Shown: piece by piece, positions 2,699 through 63,732 of the stretch
Layout of the letters: the number at the start of each line of letters is the position of its first letter
Numbering within the stretch: position 1 is the first letter of the stretch
Source: an uncultured Lachnospiraceae bacterium
GTDB lineage: Bacteria; Bacillota; Clostridia; Lachnospirales; Lachnospiraceae
Reading direction: 5' to 3'
DNA: 64,000 nt
Assembly: GCA_902765725.1 (NCBI GenBank)
Contig: CACXAT010000001.1
Location: 1 to 64,000 of the forward strand
Made by a program: the position numbers and the translations under genes
Notes under the pieces: generated by a model
Told to the model about the DNA's origin: nothing
The model's input: only the letters and a program-made list of their open reading frames with translations
Databases searched by the model: none

Positions 2699-2726
2699 TA
2701 TATGGTTCTTACCGTTCGCAAGAATG

Positions 2727-2842
2727 GCGCACTTATAGACAACCGAAGGGTCGTCTACTGCGCGCGTGCCTTCAGCAGGAGCCCTCCCTGGGCGGGGTCC
2801 TTCCGGACAGGAGCCTTCCGGCGGACTCCTGCGGAGGGCTCC
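2727..2842. other. origin of transfer (oriT) of IME-1
   Basis: GCGCACTTATAGAC at 2727-2740 reads, on the minus strand, ATAAGTGCGCC, which matches the nick region of RSF1010/R1162-type MOBQ plasmids (TAAGTGCG|CCCT). An imperfect inverted partner (GTCTACTGCGCGC) follows at about 2753. A larger hairpin lies beside it: GGAGCCCTCC (2778-2787) pairs with GGAGGGCTCC (2833-2842). The site lies between DUF3847 and the relaxase, and the same nick motif occupies the equivalent gap in IME-2. Confidence 0.75.
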
Positions 2843-8633: not shown

Positions 8634-8661
8634 TGGTTCCTGTTGGTTCCAAATTGGTTCC
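8634..8661. repeat. three TGGTTCC direct repeats, possible integrase arm sites
   Basis: TGGTTCC occurs at 8634-8640, 8644-8650 and 8655-8661, spaced 10 and 11 bases, so all fall on one face of the helix. They lie between the IME-1 integrase gene and the att core at 8731. This is the usual place for arm-type integrase or excisionase binding sites; their use is inferred. Confidence 0.5.
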
Positions 8662-8682: not shown

Positions 8683-8722
8683 AGAAACCCCGATTTTCCT
8701 TGTAGTTACAAGGAAAATCGGG
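8683..8722 (-). terminator. terminator beside the left att copy
   Basis: A perfect 16-base inverted repeat: CCCGATTTTCCTTGTA (8689-8704) pairs with TACAAGGAAAATCGGG (8707-8722), with a two-base loop. On the minus strand it is followed by a T-rich run (GGTTTCTTTATTT). It stands in the position a tRNA-Trp terminator would occupy if IME-2 were absent. Confidence 0.7.
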
Positions 8723-8730
8723 ACTTCACC

Positions 8731-8753
8731 CAGCAGGGGATGAGAGAATCGAA
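8731..8753. repeat. attachment site copy (IME-1/IME-2 junction)
   Basis: A 23-base sequence (begins CAGCAGGGGATGAG, ends AATCGAA) identical to 25171-25193, where it is the 3' end of tRNA-Trp. Outside these 23 bases the two loci differ at once. It marks the right end of IME-1 and the left end of IME-2. The fragment covers only the T-loop-to-acceptor part of the tRNA. Confidence 0.88.
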
Positions 8754-8830
8754 GGCAAGATTTTCATCCTCTCATTCCTCAAAATATCCAGTAATTATCA
8801 GCGTTTCAGCAACACGATGCCTAACCTTCA

Positions 8831-8863
8831 GGTGATGACTTTCTGATGACTTCGTGATGACTT
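8831..8863. repeat. left arm-type integrase sites of IME-2
   Basis: Three copies of (GG)TGATGACTT at 8831-8841, 8844-8852 and 8854-8863, in one orientation and roughly one helical turn apart. They sit about 80-110 bp inside the att core and abut the integrase stop codon at 8864. The same 11-mer recurs twice inside the right end of the element (25084-25106). Confidence 0.65.
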
Positions 8864-10099
8864 TCAGAACATCACCGCCTGAGCGATCTGATCCTGCTTG
8901 GTCTTTGCACTCCTGTTGCTGTAATAATAGAGTTTTCTGGTAGTAGAAACATCTGTGTGGCCCATCTGCTCTGCTACGAAGCTGTCATCAACATCATGAT
9001 CAAGCAGCATCGTTCCATATGTTTTACGGATTTTATGACTCGAATGATGTACGATTCCAAGCTTATCACAGATGTCGGAGATCCGTTTGTTCAACGTATT
9101 GCCTCTGATCCGCTTTCCCTTATTCATCAACAGATATTCACCGTTTGGATTCAGTGCCTGTATTTTTCTTAAGGTCTCATGTGCTTGCGGAGGCAGTACA
9201 ATATCCCTGCAGCCGGCATCCGTCTTTGCATGCTCTTTAATGGCCAGTTTCCAGGTGCCATCTTCCTCGCGATATTTGTACTCTGTACGGAATACATGGA
9301 GTACATTCTGCCCAATGTCAGAAGGCTTTAAGGCAACTGCTTCACCTACTCTTAAGCCTGTCTGGAACATGAGCATCAATCCCAGATTCCAGATATCTTC
9401 ATTGTTCTGAAGATAATTCCGGATCAAGGGCGTGTCTGCTTCCGAAAAGGTTTCACATTCCTTATGGCGCACCACGGTTCTGAAGGCGTGTCTGGAAATA
9501 TCAAGATCTCCCATGAACTGGGTAATACTGATATTGGTAAATCCATGCTTCTTTGCATACTTGAACATCCCGTTGATCAGTATCGCCAATCCCGAATACG
9601 CCCTGCGCGTCAGTTTCAGTTCCGAGATCGTTGTCTTGATAAACGTCTCCAGATCATCTTCTGTGATATTCTTTACTTTCTTCCTGCAGATCGGCTGAGA
9701 CTTTCTAAAGAATCGTTTATAATCGTCTTTGTACCGATCATAGGACTGCCTTTGGATCTCTCCATACAGCAGTTTTTCAGATGACCAGGCATTAAAAATG
9801 TCCTCCAGATAAATGGCATCTTCCTGGGCTTTATAATGCTTTACCAGATAATTCTCCAGTTCCTCCTTTGTTTTTCTGCGTCTGATCTTACGTTTTCCAT
9901 TTTCGTCGTAAATATAAGTCAGATACATGCCTTTCTTATCTTGCCAGATTTCTCGTGAATGCTGTGACAATAACTGTTCTCGCTTCATTCTCTCAACACT
10001 GGCAGCTATCTCGTCAACACGGAGTATACCATTGTTGACAGCCTCTCTCAATACGTCCTGTATATCCATCTCCTGGAGAATCTGTGTCTCAGCATCCAC
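8864..10099 (-). CDS. int: tyrosine recombinase/integrase of IME-2
   Basis: A 411-residue integrase homologous along its length to the IME-1 enzyme. The catalytic boxes are visible: Arg in MFQTGLRVGEAVAL, SSHKIRKTYGTMLL, QMGHTDVSTTRK and the tyrosine in KLYYYSNRS. A GTG at 10099 is preferred as start because AGGAGG stands seven bases upstream and the resulting N-terminus aligns with that of IME-1. The longer open frame to 10273 has no such site. The gene's 3' end meets the arm repeats beside the att site, so this enzyme most likely placed IME-2 in tRNA-Trp. Confidence 0.92.
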   Translation of the reverse strand: MDAETQILQEMDIQDVLREAVNNGILRVDEIAASVERMKREQLLSQHSREIWQDKKGMYLTYIYDENGKRKIRRRKTKEELENYLVKHYKAQEDAIYLEDIFNAWSSEKLLYGEIQRQSYDRYKDDYKRFFRKSQPICRKKVKNITEDDLETFIKTTISELKLTRRAYSGLAILINGMFKYAKKHGFTNISITQFMGDLDISRHAFRTVVRHKECETFSEADTPLIRNYLQNNEDIWNLGLMLMFQTGLRVGEAVALKPSDIGQNVLHVFRTEYKYREEDGTWKLAIKEHAKTDAGCRDIVLPPQAHETLRKIQALNPNGEYLLMNKGKRIRGNTLNKRISDICDKLGIVHHSSHKIRKTYGTMLLDHDVDDSFVAEQMGHTDVSTTRKLYYYSNRSAKTKQDQIAQAVMF

Positions 10100-10448
10100 G
10101 GTCTCACCTCCTTTCCCGTCAGACGTTTTGCAATTCGTCAAATGTCTATTCGGAAACTTGTGGGCATTCCCACAGTGCTTGTCCCCTTTTCTTCTGCACA
10201 TCCACACGTCTGGAAGACGGATATCAAAACACTGTATTCCCCGCTTCCCAGCACGTTTTAGACATATAGACACTTACTTTTATTTCAGTAATTCATAAGA
10301 AGAAGTATTCAAGATTCATATAAATAAGAGGAACAACCGGCCTGATATCCGTCTATCTGTCTGGCGATGCCATCCCTGGTCCTGCCAGGCATTTCCATGC
10401 ATGAGTCAGCTGACCGGATTTCTCCTTGTTCCTTTTGCTTTTCGAAGA

Positions 10449-11828
10449 TTATACTGGCCAGCAAAACCCGCCTGTATTGGTCTGCACATGGATCCCGTTA
10501 TAACCCCTGGCTGTCTTTCCTCCCTGTGTTTTGATATTCTGCGAATAGCTGATGCCAAACTTTGACTCGTTCTTTTTCAGATATCCGGTGAAGGTCCGCT
10601 CTGCCAGCGGCTTTTCTACATTGTCCGCACACCACTTCCGATATGCCTCGTACAGCTGCCGGGATGTTGCATGGGTTCTTTCCTCAAAACGAACATATCC
10701 CTCCGACTCCAGGAAAGAGAGGATATTGTTATCATCTCTCCGGACGTCTTCAAGATTACCTCTGGCGCGTTCGCTGATCGTAAAACGGTATCCGTTCCCG
10801 ATCAGGCGGTGCAGCCCTTCCAGCGCCCATAGCAGAATGCCTTCTGCCTCAGCAGCGAGCTTGTCCCCCAGGGCATAGTCATCCACACGGTTCTTATCCC
10901 TGTCCCTGGTCTGCAGGATTATCTGCCGGCGGTAAAAACCATCAGACCTGTCATGCAACGCGGTAAGCGATCCATTGCCCAGTCCCATCAGCCTGCAGTA
11001 AAGATCACCCTGTACGCTCTGCCTTCCTTTTCGTTCAAGATCGATCTTCCCTTCCAGGGTGACGATGACCTTCAGCGTATTCGTATCCGGCAAGGCTTCC
11101 ATCTTCATGTCGTCATCCAGCATCAGGAGCATTCCTTCCTGATCTGCCCGCGCAAAGCGGTCTGACGCCAGTTTCTGCATGCTGCTGGTCGTCATGTTAT
11201 TGCCAAGCAGCGCCCGGAGCACCTTGCCAAGCCTCGATTTCCCCTCACCACCGTTTCCGATAATAAGCAGCATCTTCTGCGCCGCATTCGTTGGGATCAG
11301 GCAATATCCGATGAATTCCTGCAGGGTAGGGATATCCTCCGGATAAAGCAGTTCATTCAGGAACCAGATCCATGTAGCAGGCACAGGTGCGTCCGTCCGG
11401 TAACTGACCGGGAGACGGTTGATGCAGAATGTCCGGTCCGTTGTAAACCTCCTCTCACGCAGGAAATAAGTCCCGTTATGAAAATGGATCCTGTCCGTCT
11501 CGATCGGGAGCTCTTCGCTCATGGCCATCAGCTTCAGTGCACCCATATACTTCTCCACATTCTTGGCCACGTTTGTTTTGATATATGGCCTGACATAAGA
11601 AAAGATCTCACTTTTCACGCTGTCATCACTTATGCGGCCATCTATGTCATAGAGACGGTCACGGATACACCTCATGGGATGCTTCTCCAGAAGGCAGGCG
11701 CAGAACGCGACCTCATCGATCCTGTTTCCGTCGAACCACTCCGGATCTGCTGCCTGCCCAAACGCCTCCATGGTCTCTTCAAACGCCTTCATTTTCTCCT
11801 GTGGTAAATCTGTCCAGTCTTCTTTCAT
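10449..11828 (-). CDS. P4-type phage/plasmid helicase of IME-2
   Basis: A 459-residue superfamily 3 helicase of the D5/P4 family. It has a Walker A motif (IIGNGGEGKSRLGKVL, about residues 188-203), an acidic Walker B-like segment (LLMLDDDMKMEALPD) and a sensor-like RLMGLGNGS, then a C-terminal winged-helix-like region (about 375-440). It is shorter than the IME-1 protein and overlaps the end of the CHC2 gene by 50 bases, suggesting that primase and helicase functions are split into two coupled genes here. Likely role: replication of the excised or transferred element. Confidence 0.8.
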   Translation of the reverse strand: MKEDWTDLPQEKMKAFEETMEAFGQAADPEWFDGNRIDEVAFCACLLEKHPMRCIRDRLYDIDGRISDDSVKSEIFSYVRPYIKTNVAKNVEKYMGALKLMAMSEELPIETDRIHFHNGTYFLRERRFTTDRTFCINRLPVSYRTDAPVPATWIWFLNELLYPEDIPTLQEFIGYCLIPTNAAQKMLLIIGNGGEGKSRLGKVLRALLGNNMTTSSMQKLASDRFARADQEGMLLMLDDDMKMEALPDTNTLKVIVTLEGKIDLERKGRQSVQGDLYCRLMGLGNGSLTALHDRSDGFYRRQIILQTRDRDKNRVDDYALGDKLAAEAEGILLWALEGLHRLIGNGYRFTISERARGNLEDVRRDDNNILSFLESEGYVRFEERTHATSRQLYEAYRKWCADNVEKPLAERTFTGYLKKNESKFGISYSQNIKTQGGKTARGYNGIHVQTNTGGFCWPV

Positions 11829-12447
11829 ACTCCTTCACCTTCTCCCTGTAGCAATTCATCAGATCTATCTTTTTCTCCGGAGTCCCCTCCAGAATTTCGT
11901 CCATAAGGAACTCAACCGTCGATATTTCCCGGAGCGCTTCACAAAAACGATCGTTCCATTCATCTTCCGGTCCGGAAGGCGCTTCCGTTTCCTTCCACGA
12001 CATCAGCAAATGATGGTAATCCGCCAGCACACGAAAAAAGCGCTCCTGTGTCGCAAGGCAGCGCTCTGTTAACGTTTTCTTTTTGGGAGGAAGGCGTCCA
12101 GGACGCCCCCTGTTTACTATTCTCTTTCCCACCCTTCCTGCAGAAGGCCGTCGCTGTTTGTATGATATTCCAAAATCATCAGCAAGCCTGGCAGCAGCCT
12201 CCAGTTTACTGATCCCCAGTAGACCCGCTGTGAAGTCAATCACATCTCCATCCGCACCACAGCCAAAACAATGATATCGACTGTCGATCTTCATGCTTGG
12301 GTCTCTGTCATCATGAAAAGGGCAGCGGGCCATTCCGCCTCTGTTGATTTTTACACCATAGTGCCTCGCAGCATCATCTGTTCTGATACTTTCCTTCACT
12401 GCCCGGAATACAGAGCGGCTGTTTCCATTGGTTGTCCTGTATCCCAT
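11779..12447 (-). CDS. CHC2 zinc-finger protein (primase zinc-binding domain)
   Basis: A 222-residue protein with the DnaG-type CHC2 zinc finger at about residues 42-66 (ARCPFHDDRDPSMKI, then RYHCFGCGADGDVIDF), giving the Cys-His-Cys-Cys ligands. The rest is basic and helical; no TOPRIM motif is seen, so it is not a full primase. Together with the overlapping P4-type helicase it probably forms the element's replication-initiation pair. IME-1 has no separate CHC2 gene in the window. The start at 12447 lies just after the stop of the nested coiled-coil gene. Confidence 0.8.
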   Translation of the reverse strand: MGYRTTNGNSRSVFRAVKESIRTDDAARHYGVKINRGGMARCPFHDDRDPSMKIDSRYHCFGCGADGDVIDFTAGLLGISKLEAAARLADDFGISYKQRRPSAGRVGKRIVNRGRPGRLPPKKKTLTERCLATQERFFRVLADYHHLLMSWKETEAPSGPEDEWNDRFCEALREISTVEFLMDEILEGTPEKKIDLMNCYREKVKEYERRLDRFTTGENEGV

Positions 12448-12450
12448 CCC

Positions 12451-13095
12451 TTATCCTCCCATGCCTGCAGCTGTGCATTTCTCTTTTTGTAATTCCCGGA
12501 TCTTTTCTCTGGCACTCTCATACAGGCCTCTCATCTGCTCATAGGATTTCCACAGATCATCGTATGCGGACTTCGCGTTCTCGTACTTCTGTTCCATCTC
12601 TTCCCAGAGCGTAAGCAGCATCTCGTTTTCTTCGTTCAATCTGGCACTCAATTGTCTCAATGAAATCTTCTGTGTGTACAAGGAGCGGGTTTCCTGCTTC
12701 CCTCTGGCTAATGCTGCCAATAGTTCCTCCCTCGTCATATCCTGCGAGGCTGCCGCTTCTTTGCCGGAGATCTCTTTCCTGCTTAAGCTGTTCGTACTGG
12801 CTTCGAATTCTTTTCCCGGCATCCATAACTCTTTTAATCCCTGCAATTCCTGATTCTGCTTCACCAATACTTCGTTCTGTTCTGACAGATCGCTGCAAAA
12901 GATCTTCCATTTCCGGATCTGTTCCTGCAGCTCCCGGATCTTCACTTCGTCCTTTTGGGACTGGTCCATCAGCTGATGCATGTCCTGGCAAATATCCTGC
13001 AGGAGTGCCATCGCCTCCTTCAGATAAGCCTGCTGCTTTCTGAGCAGCGAAATCATACAGTTCATCAATTCCATAACCGCTTCCGTCATTGCCAT
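12451..13095 (-). CDS. coiled-coil protein nested out of frame within the IME-2 relaxase gene
   Basis: A 214-residue, almost entirely coiled-coil protein. ATG at 13095 follows AAAGGGGAG. More than 80% of the gene lies inside the relaxase gene (12557-14032) on the same strand but in another frame. Its first 85 residues align to the 98-residue IME-1 protein at 3914-4210 (shared LL..QQ, KWK, QNQEL), and its later part corresponds in position to the coiled coil of the IME-1 protein at 4220. It has no membrane segments. No named family is recognised. Conservation of both frames between elements argues that both products are made. Confidence 0.75.
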   Translation of the reverse strand: MAMTEAVMELMNCMISLLRKQQAYLKEAMALLQDICQDMHQLMDQSQKDEVKIRELQEQIRKWKIFCSDLSEQNEVLVKQNQELQGLKELWMPGKEFEASTNSLSRKEISGKEAAASQDMTREELLAALARGKQETRSLYTQKISLRQLSARLNEENEMLLTLWEEMEQKYENAKSAYDDLWKSYEQMRGLYESAREKIRELQKEKCTAAGMGG

Positions 13096-14032
13096 AATCT
13101 CCCCTTTCTGTTCTTTTCTCCAACAATTCCCTGCCAGGGATAAAACCTGCAAGCTTTTTCATTTCTTCCCTGATCAACGCAATACTCCCGATCAGCTCAT
13201 CCAGCTGTTTCCTGGCTTTTTCCAGAAATGCGTTCCAGATCCGAATCGCCCTGTTTTCCTCACAGCGCTCGGAAATGAATCCTAACGCTTCCATTTGCCT
13301 GGCATGATATCCTTCATGGACAGTCGGCTCCTGCAGTTTTCCCTGGTCTGCATAACTGCGGTGGTCAATCTGGTCTTCGTTCTGAAGATATCTGTTGCAG
13401 CAAACCTCCCAGCTTTTTCTCCACTCATCAACCCGGTCCCGCCGGTTCCATCCGGTTGTTTCTACCAGGCCGCGTTTCCACTGCTTTCGGTTTCTTGCAT
13501 CGACCTTTTGTTTTCCTGTGGCCGGGTCGATGACAGGGATCCTGTTTCCATTCAAGTCCAGTAAATAGCTTTTTTTCTCTTTATCACCCCAGCTGCCGTC
13601 CTCCCTGATCGGACGCATCGTCGCAAGGGAATGGCAGTGCGGGTTCCCATCGCCCTTATCATGTATTGCGAAGTCAATGCACATCCCCTCCTCTACAAGC
13701 GGTTCAAAGAAATCATGCAACATCTTTATCTGTGATTCCCTGTCTGCTTCCCTTGGCAGTGCGATCTCAAACTCCCGCGCAAACTGCGCGTCCTTCGATT
13801 TTTCCACCTTCATCACGCTGTTCCAAAGCGTCCCCCTGTCCTGGTATTCAGCCGGTGCGTTCCTGCAGAGCATGATCTCTTTGTAGACAACTTCCTTCTT
13901 TTTCCTGTAATCACAAAGCTTCTGCAGTTCTTCATCGTAGATCCGTTCGCCGGCCCGGTACGCTGCGCAGGCTGCTGCCGACTCTCCTTTACTGCGGCTG
14001 TGGATCTTGACTGACATATGATAGATTGCCAT
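12557..14032 (-). CDS. mobL: MobA/MobL family relaxase of IME-2 (MOBQ type)
   Basis: A 491-residue relaxase. The N-terminus (MAIYHMSVKIHSRSKGESA) and the histidine motif DKGDGNPHCHSLATMRPI at about 120-137 match the IME-1 enzyme almost residue for residue, while the C-terminal third is much more diverged. ATG at 14032 follows AAAGGAGGAG. The gene lies directly downstream of oriT and DUF3847. From 13095 the same bases also encode the nested coiled-coil protein; the relaxase C-terminus there is rich in Gly, Asp, Glu and Arg, as is common in a frame under dual constraint. Confidence 0.9.
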   Translation of the reverse strand: MAIYHMSVKIHSRSKGESAAACAAYRAGERIYDEELQKLCDYRKKKEVVYKEIMLCRNAPAEYQDRGTLWNSVMKVEKSKDAQFAREFEIALPREADRESQIKMLHDFFEPLVEEGMCIDFAIHDKGDGNPHCHSLATMRPIREDGSWGDKEKKSYLLDLNGNRIPVIDPATGKQKVDARNRKQWKRGLVETTGWNRRDRVDEWRKSWEVCCNRYLQNEDQIDHRSYADQGKLQEPTVHEGYHARQMEALGFISERCEENRAIRIWNAFLEKARKQLDELIGSIALIREEMKKLAGFIPGRELLEKRTERGDYGNDGSGYGIDELYDFAAQKAAGLSEGGDGTPAGYLPGHASADGPVPKGRSEDPGAAGTDPEMEDLLQRSVRTERSIGEAESGIAGIKRVMDAGKRIRSQYEQLKQERDLRQRSGSLAGYDEGGTIGSISQREAGNPLLVHTEDFIETIECQIERRKRDAAYALGRDGTEVREREVRIR

Positions 14033-14139: not shown

Positions 14140-14181
14140 GCGCACTTATTCAGGACGACCTCTGGTTGTCTATAAGTGCGC
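14140..14181. other. origin of transfer (oriT) of IME-2
   Basis: GCGCACTTAT (14140-14149) and ATAAGTGCGC (14172-14181) form a perfect 10-base inverted repeat around 22 bases. The right arm reads CTATAAGTGCGCA and matches the MOBQ nick region (TAAGTGCG|C) of RSF1010-type plasmids. With the neighbouring GGTTGT it shares an 18-base core with IME-1 in the same orientation relative to the relaxase gene. Confidence 0.75.
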
Positions 14182-14225
14182 ATTTCTTCGAAATGAGCCT
14201 TTTTTCATAATCTGTGGGGAAATGA

Positions 14226-14537
14226 TCAGGGCAGCATAAAGGAGCATCTGCCGTCAATCACATTGAATGATCCTATTTTTCTCTCTGCTGTTTTCAGGTA
14301 TTCCCGGAAAGCCGGAAGATCTTCCTTCGGAATCTGTCTTCCCATAACAGACTCGACTTCAGCACCAATACCGATCAGCCGGTGTACACGCTGTCTTCTG
14401 TTCTGATAACTGATCTCATTCTCCTTTTTTCTGCGACATGCCTGTAACTGTTTGTTTTTTCTTTCGACCGATTCCAGTTTTTCTTCCAGATCCGCTACGT
14501 CCTGTTTCATCTTTTCAACCTGTTTGTCCATGATCAT
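14226..14537 (-). CDS. DUF3847 domain-containing mobilization-associated protein
   Basis: A 103-residue homologue of the IME-1 protein at 2432-2698. It has an N-terminal coiled coil (DLEEKLESVERKNKQLQACR), then the conserved RRQRVHRLIGIGAEVESVMG segment and a short C-terminal tail. ATG at 14537 follows AAGGAGG by five bases. It precedes oriT and the relaxase, the usual place for this family, and is probably part of the relaxosome or its regulation; direct evidence of function is absent. Confidence 0.75.
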   Translation of the reverse strand: MIMDKQVEKMKQDVADLEEKLESVERKNKQLQACRRKKENEISYQNRRQRVHRLIGIGAEVESVMGRQIPKEDLPAFREYLKTAERKIGSFNVIDGRCSFMLP

Positions 14538-14562
14538 CCGTTCCTCCTTCCCGGTAGAAGAG

Positions 14563-14594
14563 CAAAGAAAAAGGACCGCTGTTTAGCGATCCTT
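14563..14594 (-). terminator. intrinsic terminator in the leader of the IME-2 mobilization operon
   Basis: On the minus strand AAGGATCGCT and AGCGGTCCTT pair with one mismatch around AAAC, then comes TTTTTCTTT. It stands about 25 bases upstream of the DUF3847 start, so transcripts coming from the repeat region would stop here unless terminated late or antiterminated. Confidence 0.6.
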
Positions 14595-14635
14595 CAATCC
14601 GGTTTCTGTGCTTATAATTCAGTTTTCGATAATAC

Positions 14636-15260
14636 TATTGTACCCGGAAAAATGTGCAATTGTGTATCCACTTGCCGACTATCAGCACTGTTTTTTCATT
14701 TTTCTGTGCAACAATGTATCCGGTATGTATCGGAAGTGTATCGCAATGTATCGAGCGTGTATCTCTTCCAACCGGTGACATAATTCCACAATACAATTCT
14801 ACACCAAACAGGGTGTCATTGTGTTTCAACTTTCAGGGGTTCGTGCTCATCCCGTTTCATTTTTCTGGGTTCTTGTTTCACGAGCGTGTCAGGTGCATGT
14901 CATTTCATTTCAAATGACCGCTTGATAAACCAATGTTCCGAAAGGTGTATCACAATACCATTATACCCATGAAAATGCTTTTTTGTGTTTCCACTTGAGG
15001 GCACTTTGTTTCCAATTTCAGGGTTTTTGTTTCCTGGCGTTTCCAAAATGTTTTTCTGTGATTAATTTTGTTTCCAACAAGAGTTTCGTGTATCTATGTG
15101 TACCTCTTGAGGTAAAATATCACATTACCATTATACCCAGTCAAACAGTTTTTTGTGTTCACACTTGGCGCACATCTGTTCAAATATCGGGGTTTTTGTT
15201 TTCTGGCGTTCACAAAACAGTTTTCTGATGTTCAGTTTGTTTCCAAAATAGTATCAATGT
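14636..15260. repeat. four diverged tandem repeat units with unit-specific short motifs
   Basis: Four units of about 150-170 bp begin near 14636, 14785, 14944 and 15114. The last two share ACCATTATACCC, TTTTTTGTG and GGGTTTTTGTTT blocks in the same order. Each unit repeats its own six-base motif: GTATCC/GTATCG in unit 1, GTTTCA in unit 2, GTTTCC in unit 3, GTTCAC or GTTCA in unit 4. The first motif in each follows TTGT and precedes ACTT or AACTT. No long open frame is convincing. The array resembles iteron-type binding sites and may be a replication origin or control region. Confidence 0.6.
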
Positions 15261-15482
15261 AAGCAAGATGTACCAGTCAAGGATTGTGGACATAAAATTG
15301 ATATAAGTTGTACCCGTCACAAACGCTGTATAAGAAGCAGATCACCGCAAATCTATGATTCATTCTTGCAGCAAACTTCCTGGTTATTATGCGAGGAGCT
15401 ATTCTCAAGCTCATGTTCATGAGTTTTATAGATAATACCCTCTGAAAACACAGAGGGTATTTGGTAGTTTTGGTGTTTATCG
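15261..15482. other. spacer between repeat array and cargo, with a hairpin
   Basis: No gene is seen. ATACCCTCTG (15435-15444) pairs with CAGAGGGTAT (15451-15460). It lies just past the last cargo gene on the minus strand (stop at 15483) and probably terminates that operon, though the T-rich tail is weak. Confidence 0.45.
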
Positions 15483-25083: not shown

Positions 25084-25106
25084 GGTGATGACTTGGGTGA
25101 TGACTT
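25084..25106. repeat. right arm-type integrase sites of IME-2
   Basis: GGTGATGACTT occurs twice, at 25084-25094 and 25096-25106, 12 bases apart, the same 11-mer as at the left end of the element. The distance to the att core (about 65 bases) is typical of arm-type sites of tyrosine integrases. Confidence 0.65.
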
Positions 25107-25170: not shown

Positions 25171-25193
25171 CAGCAGGGGATGAGAGAATCGAA
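25171..25193. repeat. attachment site copy within tRNA-Trp
   Basis: The right copy of the 23-base att core, identical to 8731-8753. It covers the discriminator base, acceptor 3' strand and T-stem 3' side and part of the loop of tRNA-Trp plus three bases beyond. Integration here leaves the tRNA gene intact. Confidence 0.88.
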
Positions 25194-25244
25194 CTCCCAC
25201 CAAAGGTTTTGGAGACCCCTATCATACCATTTGACCAATCCCCT
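25174..25244 (-). tRNA. tRNA-Trp (anticodon CCA)
   Basis: The minus strand folds as a full cloverleaf. Acceptor stem AGGGGAT pairs with ATCCCCT, D stem GTCA pairs with TGAT, anticodon stem GGGGT pairs with ACCTT with G-U pairs, loop CTCCAAA with anticodon CCA, T arm GGGAG-TTCGATT-CTCTC, and discriminator G. The CCA tail is not encoded. The 3' end is the integration site of IME-2. Confidence 0.93.
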
Positions 25245-60517: not shown

Positions 60518-61966
60518 TCAAATCTTTTCTTCTTCCTCGCCTGCGGGGGCCGCGGCTGCCGCCGACCCTCCCCAGGATGAATAGGAAGAGTAAGAAGACG
60601 CGGGCTGTGAAGCAGCTTTTGCGGGCTCCGAAACAGCCTTTGCGGGCTCCGCTGCAGCCTTCGCCGGCGCCGGAGCAGCTTTTGCGAATTCATTTCCTCC
60701 CGTGAGGCCATCCTGCGCCATCATCTGGCCCATCACCGAGATGTCACTCGACACATCCCATGCGGTTGACTGATAGAAGGAATCCAGGAATCTCTCAAAG
60801 GCATCGTTGATCGTGTCCAGAGAATCCTCGATCTCCCTCTTGGCATTTTCAATATTTGTTCCCTGCACGCTCTGGCGGTCCAGCGTCGCGTAGGTATCAA
60901 CCAGTTTCTGGGTGGTAGGCAGATAATACTTCATCATGCGGTGCATATCCGGCGCGCTCTCGGGCGCCTCCGCCACACGGTCGAAGATATTCGTCACGAT
61001 CTGCTCGAGGCGGTTCAGCTTCTGCGTGAACGCCTCCCCGGGGACCTCCTCGTTCTTCTGGTGGATGTGGGCGATAAATGCCTTGCCCTCCTCCACGATC
61101 TCCTGCATCTCTTTGCTCAGGCGCTCCGCCTTCTTCGCTTCACTCTTCTCACGCGCGTCGATGGCCTCCTCCATCTTGCGGTATTCCTTGAGATCCGACT
61201 CCCTGAATACGCTCTTCTCTTTCCGCAGCTCATACTGCTTCATGGTCTCCAGATACTGCTCATAGGCTTCGGAGCTGGTCATGAATGCCGTCATCTCCTT
61301 GTCCATATAGGCTTTTCCGGTGAAGACATTCTCACGGATCATGTTCTGGAGATCCTCCGCAGCCTCCTTCTCCGTCTTGCCGAAAGCCGCCGCGACCTCC
61401 TTGATGGTTATGGTATCACGCTCCTCCATCATCTTCAGGAGCTTGCGCGCGCGCCGGATCAGACCGATCTTCTTGATCCCCTTGAACAGACTCCAGCAGC
61501 CGCCGGCGGTCAGGGCGCCCAGAAAGAGCGCGAGGACCAGCATGCCGAAATCCCCGAAGGAGAGGGCAACTGCTGCCACAAAGGGAATCCCCATCCCGAA
61601 GCTGAAGATTCCGCTCAGGATCGAGCGGATATACGATCCCACCGGACTCACAACTCCGTCGGTGCCAAGAAAGGCGGCCCCGGCCTCATTGTAGCTGTCC
61701 GTATGCCGCACCTTCGCCTGGGCATCAGCATAACTGCTGGTGGATTCGGCGCGGTAGGTCCTTGCGCCGTCCATGCGGTAATAAGGCTTCTTCTCCCCCA
61801 GCACAGCGCCGGTCAGGCTGTCATGGACCGCATCCGCAGCCTCATTCAGCGCCTCCGTGATCTGCCGGTTCAGTGAACTGTAATCTCCGCTGCTGATCGC
61901 TTCATTTACCAGCTCAGCAATATGTCCGACGGCCTCAAATCCGTCAAAGCTGTCCTTCTTTCCCAT
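60518..61966 (-). CDS. xpaC: XpaC-like (5-bromo-4-chloroindolyl phosphate hydrolysis) family protein
   Basis: A 482-residue protein. An Asp/Ser/Tyr-rich N-terminus leads to two membrane segments (about 145-200, IPFVAAVALSFGDFGMLVLA), then a long coiled-coil region (about 215-420, for example RESDLKEYRKMEEAIDAREK) and a Pro/Ala-rich tail. The pattern fits XpaC-like proteins, which pair with TelA. ATG 61966 follows GGGAGA. It is divergent from telA at 62170. Confidence 0.75.
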   Translation of the reverse strand: MGKKDSFDGFEAVGHIAELVNEAISSGDYSSLNRQITEALNEAADAVHDSLTGAVLGEKKPYYRMDGARTYRAESTSSYADAQAKVRHTDSYNEAGAAFLGTDGVVSPVGSYIRSILSGIFSFGMGIPFVAAVALSFGDFGMLVLALFLGALTAGGCWSLFKGIKKIGLIRRARKLLKMMEERDTITIKEVAAAFGKTEKEAAEDLQNMIRENVFTGKAYMDKEMTAFMTSSEAYEQYLETMKQYELRKEKSVFRESDLKEYRKMEEAIDAREKSEAKKAERLSKEMQEIVEEGKAFIAHIHQKNEEVPGEAFTQKLNRLEQIVTNIFDRVAEAPESAPDMHRMMKYYLPTTQKLVDTYATLDRQSVQGTNIENAKREIEDSLDTINDAFERFLDSFYQSTAWDVSSDISVMGQMMAQDGLTGGNEFAKAAPAPAKAAAEPAKAVSEPAKAASQPASSYSSYSSWGGSAAAAAPAGEEEEKI

Positions 61967-63498: not shown

Positions 63499-63732
63499 CG
63501 TATCACACGAGACGGACGACGCAGGGATGCCCGGACGTGCGCATTTCAGACTAAGCACGGAGGGCATCCTGCGAGGACGTCGACCCGGGATCGTACCCTG
63601 CGAGGACGTCGACCCGGGATCGTATCCTTCGAGACGGACGATGCAGGGATACCCGGACGTGCGCATTTCAGACTAAGCACGGAGGGTACCCTGCGAGGAC
63701 GTCGACCCAGGATCGTATCACACAAGACGGAC
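63499..63732. repeat. two imperfect copies of a structured intergenic repeat
   Basis: Two copies of about 100 bp occur, starting near 63508 and 63630. They share a core (CCGGACGTGCGCATTTCAGA and CTAAGCACGGAGGG around it). A 27-base stretch (CTGCGAGGACGTCGACCC, then GGGATCGTA or AGGATCGTA) occurs three times, at 63569, 63598 and 63691. Each copy folds as an outer stem (CAGGGAT.CCC with GGG..CC(C)TG) and an inner CGTGC/GCACG stem. Base changes between copies keep the outer stem paired. No protein frame is supported. Confidence 0.7.

Follow-up and report, generated by a model that had tools for sequence, protein, structure and literature searches.

A four-unit array at the head of a mobilization operon

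The window analysed here is a stretch of 64,000 nt from an uncultured Lachnospiraceae bacterium (GenBank assembly GCA_902765725.1, contig CACXAT010000001.1, positions 1 to 64,000, forward strand). It contains about 640 bases (14625-15262) in which short motifs recur in an orderly manner. Plus-strand open reading frames of 87 and 81 aa overlap this array, with no support as genes, and a coding role was rejected. The question raised by the locus is what such an array does for the DNA that carries it. The array lies within a mobilizable element, termed element B, which is integrated at a tRNA-Trp gene and whose operon genes are all on the minus strand. The features of element B are as follows:

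8731-8753, no strand assigned: attL core, an exact 23-nt copy of the tRNA-Trp 3′ end
8833-8865, no strand assigned: three arm-like TGATGAC repeats at the integrase side, with 11-bp spacing
8864-10273, minus strand: tyrosine integrase of element B (profile match)
10449-11828, minus strand: DUF5906/D5-type helicase (profile match)
11779-12447, minus strand: CHC2 zinc-finger (primase-type) protein (profile match)
12557-14032, minus strand: MobA/MobL relaxase (E 7.6e-77)
14144-14185, no strand assigned: oriT-like site containing TCTATAAGTGCGC, apart from the array
14226-14537, minus strand: DUF3847-like protein of 103 aa, first gene of the operon (just under the Pfam cut-off score)
14570-14595, minus strand: leader hairpin and U-run resembling an intrinsic terminator, between the array and the first gene
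25086-25104: two TGATGAC repeats at the opposite end, beside tRNA-Trp
25173-25244: attR, the tRNA-Trp gene itself

Since both ends of the element are defined by att copies and TGATGAC repeats, the 10 kb to the right of the array are cargo inside the element, ending at tRNA-Trp. The first-pass annotation, made from the sequence alone, had placed the array between mobilization genes and cargo, and this position is correct. The oriT-like site, which resembles those of MOBQ origins, has 37-bp matches at 92% identity in many other genomes of the family. Because it is separate from the array, the possibility that the array is itself an oriT was rejected. A TCTATAAGTGCGC-bearing site is also present in element A (window 2715-2785), a related second element located to the left of B, tail to tail with it. 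Element A is of a more conventional control design than B, with a divergent XRE-like regulator (917-1423) and a TTGACA/TATACT promoter near 1510-1545; it also codes for an HTH protein (1819-2235) and a distant DUF3847 homolog (2372-2698). Elsewhere in the window, tandem repeats were seen at 60600-60686 (21 bp, 4.1 copies) and 63568-63633 (29 bp, 2.3 copies).

Each unit combines phased boxes with a -10-like element

Read on the minus strand, the array consists of four paralogous units starting at 14625, 14784, 14948 and 15118 (spacings of 159, 164 and 170). A 50-nt block is kept across the units, with 66-82% identity to the reference copy. The four tandem units described in the first-pass annotation are therefore real, their starts, spacing and block identity having been confirmed. 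All have the same layout: a set of boxes, 20 nt, a -10-like hexamer and a start region of conserved, GTATT(G/A)T-like sequence. The boxes of each unit are copies of a short word of its own, present three to six times at multiples of one helical turn (10.5 bp):

Unit 1, 14625-14783, minus strand: six GATACA boxes (14758-63, 14747-52, 14737-42, 14726-31, 14715-20 and 14663-68; gaps 11, 10, 11, 11, 52) and the -10-like TACAAT (14637-14642)
Unit 2, 14784-14947, minus strand: three TGAAAC(A/G) boxes (14874-80, 14853-59 and 14822-28; gaps 21, 31) and the -10-like TAGAAT (14796-14801)
Unit 3, 14948-15117, minus strand: five GGAAAC(A/G) boxes (15069-75, 15038-44, 15028-34, 15007-13 and 14986-92; gaps 31, 10, 21, 21) and the -10 TATAAT (14960-14965)
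Unit 4, 15118-15262, minus strand: four TGAAC(A/G) boxes (15229-34, 15207-12, 15177-82 and 15156-61; gaps 22, 30, 21) and the -10 TATAAT (15130-15135)

In every unit, exactly 20 nt separate the end of the last box from the start of the -10. None has a TTGACA-like -35, except for a 4/6 match in unit 1. All four point, via the common leader terminator, into the DUF3847-mobA-CHC2-helicase-integrase operon. The words GATACA (six copies), TGAAAC (three), GGAAAC (five) and TGAAC (four) are nearly exclusive to their units, the strays being a single GGAAACA in unit 4, at its far end, and two GATACA copies that fall outside unit 1. The earlier observation that every unit carries its own repeated word is thus correct, although for unit 4 only the repeat stands and not the word given, GTTCAC, which is actually GTTCA(A/C/G). 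The strongest regularity, the one-turn phasing of the boxes, had been missed. An origin of the boxes as a tandem-duplication artefact was rejected: those of unit 1 are identical while the spacers between them are unrelated.

Counted from the -10, every box of the four units falls on a 10.5-bp lattice. The mean phase error of 0.43 bp was equalled by none of 200,000 random placements; the corresponding probability is optimistic because the units are paralogous and the trials therefore not independent. The exact 6-mer counts of units 1 and 3 exceeded those of all 1000 dinucleotide shuffles, while those of units 2 and 4 were reached by 147 and 127 of the 1000, respectively. Since word counts alone are not significant for these last two units, the case for them comes from phasing and conservation. 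Among the element loci examined, phased chains of at least four 6-mers occurred solely in these arrays. A phased-word detector run on 811 kb of host sequence otherwise found short perfect tandem repeats alone. About one third of the host genome was read as loci and the remainder covered by pattern search; neither the tested triple-box patterns nor the promoter core were detected at any other site. A generic sigma-70 scan gave 3 promoters where 3.1 were expected, a result that fits the missing -35 boxes but is not positive proof.

The array is conserved and reused before unrelated genes

The comparison set comprised three arrays, from two genomes, and a unit standing alone in a third genome; G250 and G407 are apparently the same metagenome-assembled genome (MAG). 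The rumen MAG RUG14672 contains a MobA relative 97% identical to that of element B. In its element (locus L016) the order is units 1, 2 and 4, a NUDIX cargo gene and unit 3. The NUDIX gene (L016 4360-4828) has an apparent frameshift near its start. Unit 4 of this element is a hybrid in which promoter sequence resembling that of unit 3 is joined to unit-4 boxes, indicating that units recombine with the 20-nt distance kept. Between the integrase genes of the same locus (L016 11276), a 44-bp stretch that in the window includes the tRNA-Trp att copy (8716-8759) is missing; elements A and B are therefore fused there, with no att site between them.

On a different contig of RUG14672 (L025), all four units are present in the same order as in the window. 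This array heads a CHC2 gene, a RepA-like AAA helicase gene and a different integrase gene beside tRNA-Met/Val, without MobA. At the DNA level the two elements resemble each other only in the leader and the array (window 14548-15254), with 88% and 84% identity over two aligned halves. Their helicases, integrases and first genes all differ, the CHC2 proteins and the integrases being 39% identical each. The same codes in the same order before a different helicase indicate that box identity does not track the helicase. The check proposed earlier, whether the unit motifs vary with the helicase or CHC2 sequence, gives no support for such a joint shift, as the same four codes precede a RepA-like AAA helicase and a CHC2 protein of 39% identity.

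In orthologous units, 113 of 116 box columns were invariant, versus 231 of 293 spacer columns (Fisher p=2e-7), so each of the four codes is maintained. The random drift of motifs in homologous elements, suggested earlier as a possible refutation, was not seen. Between units 3 and 4, the boxes had not changed more than the flanks (18/24 versus 41/53). Faster divergence of boxes than of flanks is thus unsupported; the box differences, once present, are conserved.

When the promoter-core pattern was searched over 98 relatives, exact matches within the genus were confined to these mobile elements. Weak matches in the family (G086, G101 and others) were dismissed as chance. Phased arrays were not found in the 1.5 kb upstream of 20 other MobA genes of the family, nor did the array have any BLAST match in collections of phages and plasmids. 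Pattern scans of IMG/VR with the core block and with GATACA and GGAAACA triples identified loci unlinked to this element family; three of the 190 box-pattern loci had any integrase match. Rfam gave nothing credible on the array (the UPD-PKib match, E 0.23, is chance).

A unit always points into the next gene on its strand, be it DUF3847-mobA, CHC2, the NUDIX cargo gene of L016 or the operon of an integrative and conjugative element (ICE) described below. The leader hairpin with its U-run was found in all four array-type loci. Since the transcript of every unit would meet this leader before the first gene, attenuation or antitermination is a likely second layer of control. Terminator-like hairpins were also seen in the sequence of at least one related ICE (L348), before its surface-protein gene.

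A single unit 3 precedes an ICE transfer operon

At the head of an ICE operon in G375, a third genome from the same genus, stands a lone unit 3 that is 91% identical over 105 bp. Leader and ribosome-site sequence accompanies it, at 87% over 55 bp. The first gene downstream codes for a giant surface protein (adhesin) with 2143 codons to the end of the locus, continuing further. It is followed on the same strand by genes for TrbL, RhuM/Fic, PrgI, a TraG-type ATPase (VirB4-like), two NlpC/P60 proteins and a VirD2-like relaxase. Beyond these lie genes for VirD4-like and integrase-like proteins, both named from sequence alone. Just 3′ of the -10, this unit 3 (L060, about 6568) and unit 1 of the MobA element of RUG14672 (L016, about 5397) show a Spo0A-box-like TGTCGAA, where the window has ATCGAA.

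Because unit 3 and the leader head an ICE transfer operon, at least unit 3 probably responds to a signal that activates a helper. No relative of the VirB4 of this ICE was detected in the two array-bearing genomes at E<=1e-60. In related ICEs of the genus, the upstream DNA contained no unit-type promoters or boxes on contigs long enough to judge; several ICE contigs end before the promoter region and were excluded. None of the ICEs examined carried unit 1, 2 or 4. With no such VirB4 relative detected in the array genomes and no boxes on the related ICEs that could be judged, the link to a helper comes from one ICE and one unit, and the unit 3 of that ICE could be a transplanted remnant or fragment.

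Alternative explanations

The operon codes for both a helicase and a primase, and the first-pass annotation had proposed a binding array in which site and binder shift in step, as in iteron origins. The units might then be sets of iterons, each set of a different specificity, that serve the DUF5906/D5-type helicase or the CHC2 primase. The short phased repeats and the low G+C content (0.35-0.41 across most of the array) are iteron-like, and the core TGAACA of unit 4 resembles the iteron of satellite phage P4. The array is nevertheless kept beside a helicase of another family and a CHC2 protein only 39% identical, a lone unit with leader and ribosome-site region precedes an ICE transfer operon, and the fixed distance from box to -10 and the leader terminator are features of promoters. 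A replication origin therefore appears improbable. What stands of the earlier proposal is a protein-binding array with codes that differ among units, and not an origin with a resident binder evolving in step. An explanation by recombination seems less probable still. The units would be arm-type sites or attachment-site remnants of related tyrosine integrases, stacked by repeated insertion. The integrase-side repeats of elements A, B and C, namely GGAACCA (8640-8661), TGATGAC (8833-8865) and AGCCA (L025 4994-5035), are likewise spaced by about 10-11 bp, and all these motifs finish in CA in one orientation. Element B, however, has its arm motif TGATGAC at each end (8833-8865 and 25086-25104) and not within the array, no unit is matched by any of the three arm motifs, and two elements at different tRNA genes have the same four units in the same order. 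Three related tyrosine integrases with arm-like repeats of their own do offer a ready set for studies of arm specificity.

The idea that the units are sites for different regulators, also raised in the first-pass annotation, fits best, and the regulators could belong to the host. One or more OmpR/PhoB-type response regulators of the host would bind the boxes of an ordinary promoter, with no link to a helper. In another genome of the family (G106), three GATACA copies with 11-bp spacing lie upstream of a gene for an OmpR-family regulator, and three more at a second locus lie upstream of a lipoprotein gene. At both loci a -10-like hexamer follows the last box by 9 nt. An OmpR/PhoB-type winged-helix regulator is, by analogy, a fair guess for unit 1. 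Yet the nearest box of the array is 20 nt rather than 9 nt from the -10, and the absence of the tested triple-box patterns and the core elsewhere in the host genome means that no other such target is found there. Control by the host is rather unlikely, if far from negligible; because the tested box patterns are absent elsewhere in the host genome, a regulator borne by other mobile elements is at least as likely. The G106 loci (L278/L329 and L282/L330), where the lipoprotein gene adjoins electron-transport genes, form a candidate two-component regulon.

A putative multi-input control region

The reading preferred here, to which a probability of about two in three is given, is that the array comprises four tandem activator-dependent promoters that belong to the mobilizable element and are governed in trans. 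A -10 that lacks a -35 and is preceded, at a constant distance, by boxes sharing one helix face is the hallmark of such promoters. The array would be the control region of the operon for mobilization, replication and integration, and its four promoters would descend from one ancestor. In each, an activator bound to several boxes on one helix face would recruit RNA polymerase to a promoter that has a -10 but lacks a good -35. The four codes would answer to four regulators, or to four variants of one, each able to turn on the operon (an OR gate), with the common leader terminator as a further control of the attenuation type. In the operons of element B and of the second array-bearing element, none of the genes was recognised as coding for a regulator, so control is probably in trans.

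The near identity of unit 3 to the promoter of ICE transfer genes suggests that this hitchhiker may listen for several helpers. In a more tentative version, which we consider possible but doubtful, all four promoters would have been captured from, or mimic, four helper ICE lineages. The element would then sense any arriving helper through that helper's own activator, as a multi-input detector made only of DNA.

The timing of excision and transfer is largely unexplored in the mobilizable elements of Firmicutes. If the preferred reading is right, the array provides a concrete sequence that can be mutated, with four promoter codes, one of them matched to a known ICE operon, and would show how one hitchhiker can use several helpers. 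The box codes could then guide the search for the cognate activators and indicate which helpers can be used. The array also offers a natural set of putative promoters that share one geometry but differ in operator specificity.

Comparison with known systems

The origin and crr of satellite phage P4 contain repeat units with several short iteron-like sites and are associated with a D5-type helicase. In the present array, too, repeat units contain several such sites and the element has a D5-type helicase, but the codes differ by unit, the array is not tied to one helicase, and the units are shaped like promoters. Promoters of the OmpR/PhoB family have 11-bp direct repeats (Pho boxes) upstream of a -10 without a good -35. 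Direct repeats of about 11 bp before a -10 are clear in unit 1, the other units having gaps of 10, 21 and 31 bp. Unlike in those promoters, the nearest box lies one turn farther from the -10, and gaps of one, two, three and five turns are mixed.

The closest likeness is to the helper-activated promoters of SGI1 (Salmonella genomic island 1), which lack a -35 and have the -10 at 22-24 bp from the AcaCD activator site (PMC5058578). A 2017 review holds that most such mobilizable elements remain silent until the regulator of a helper arrives, and the examples of helper-triggered excision that we draw from it are all Gammaproteobacterial (PMC5704250). The AcaCD/FlhDC-responsive promoters of SGI1 (PMC5058578) and the SetCD-controlled MGIs (PMC5704250) also concern mobilizable elements for which the master activator of a helper is the signal. 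As in SGI1, the array has a -10, no -35 and activator-type boxes, at 20 nt upstream versus 22-24 bp. The sharing of a promoter with helper transfer genes that is typical of the SGI1 type was seen for unit 3 and the leader, and was not found for units 1, 2 and 4. The differences are that SGI1 has one activator code (core GCCCAAAATGGGC) driving different genes, whereas the array stacks four codes before one operon, and that its sites are multi-copy direct repeats with box sequences different from the AcaCD core. By analogy, the array would work like the AcaCD group without being a member of it, and is best read as the Gram-positive equivalent of these SGI1 promoters, with four input codes.
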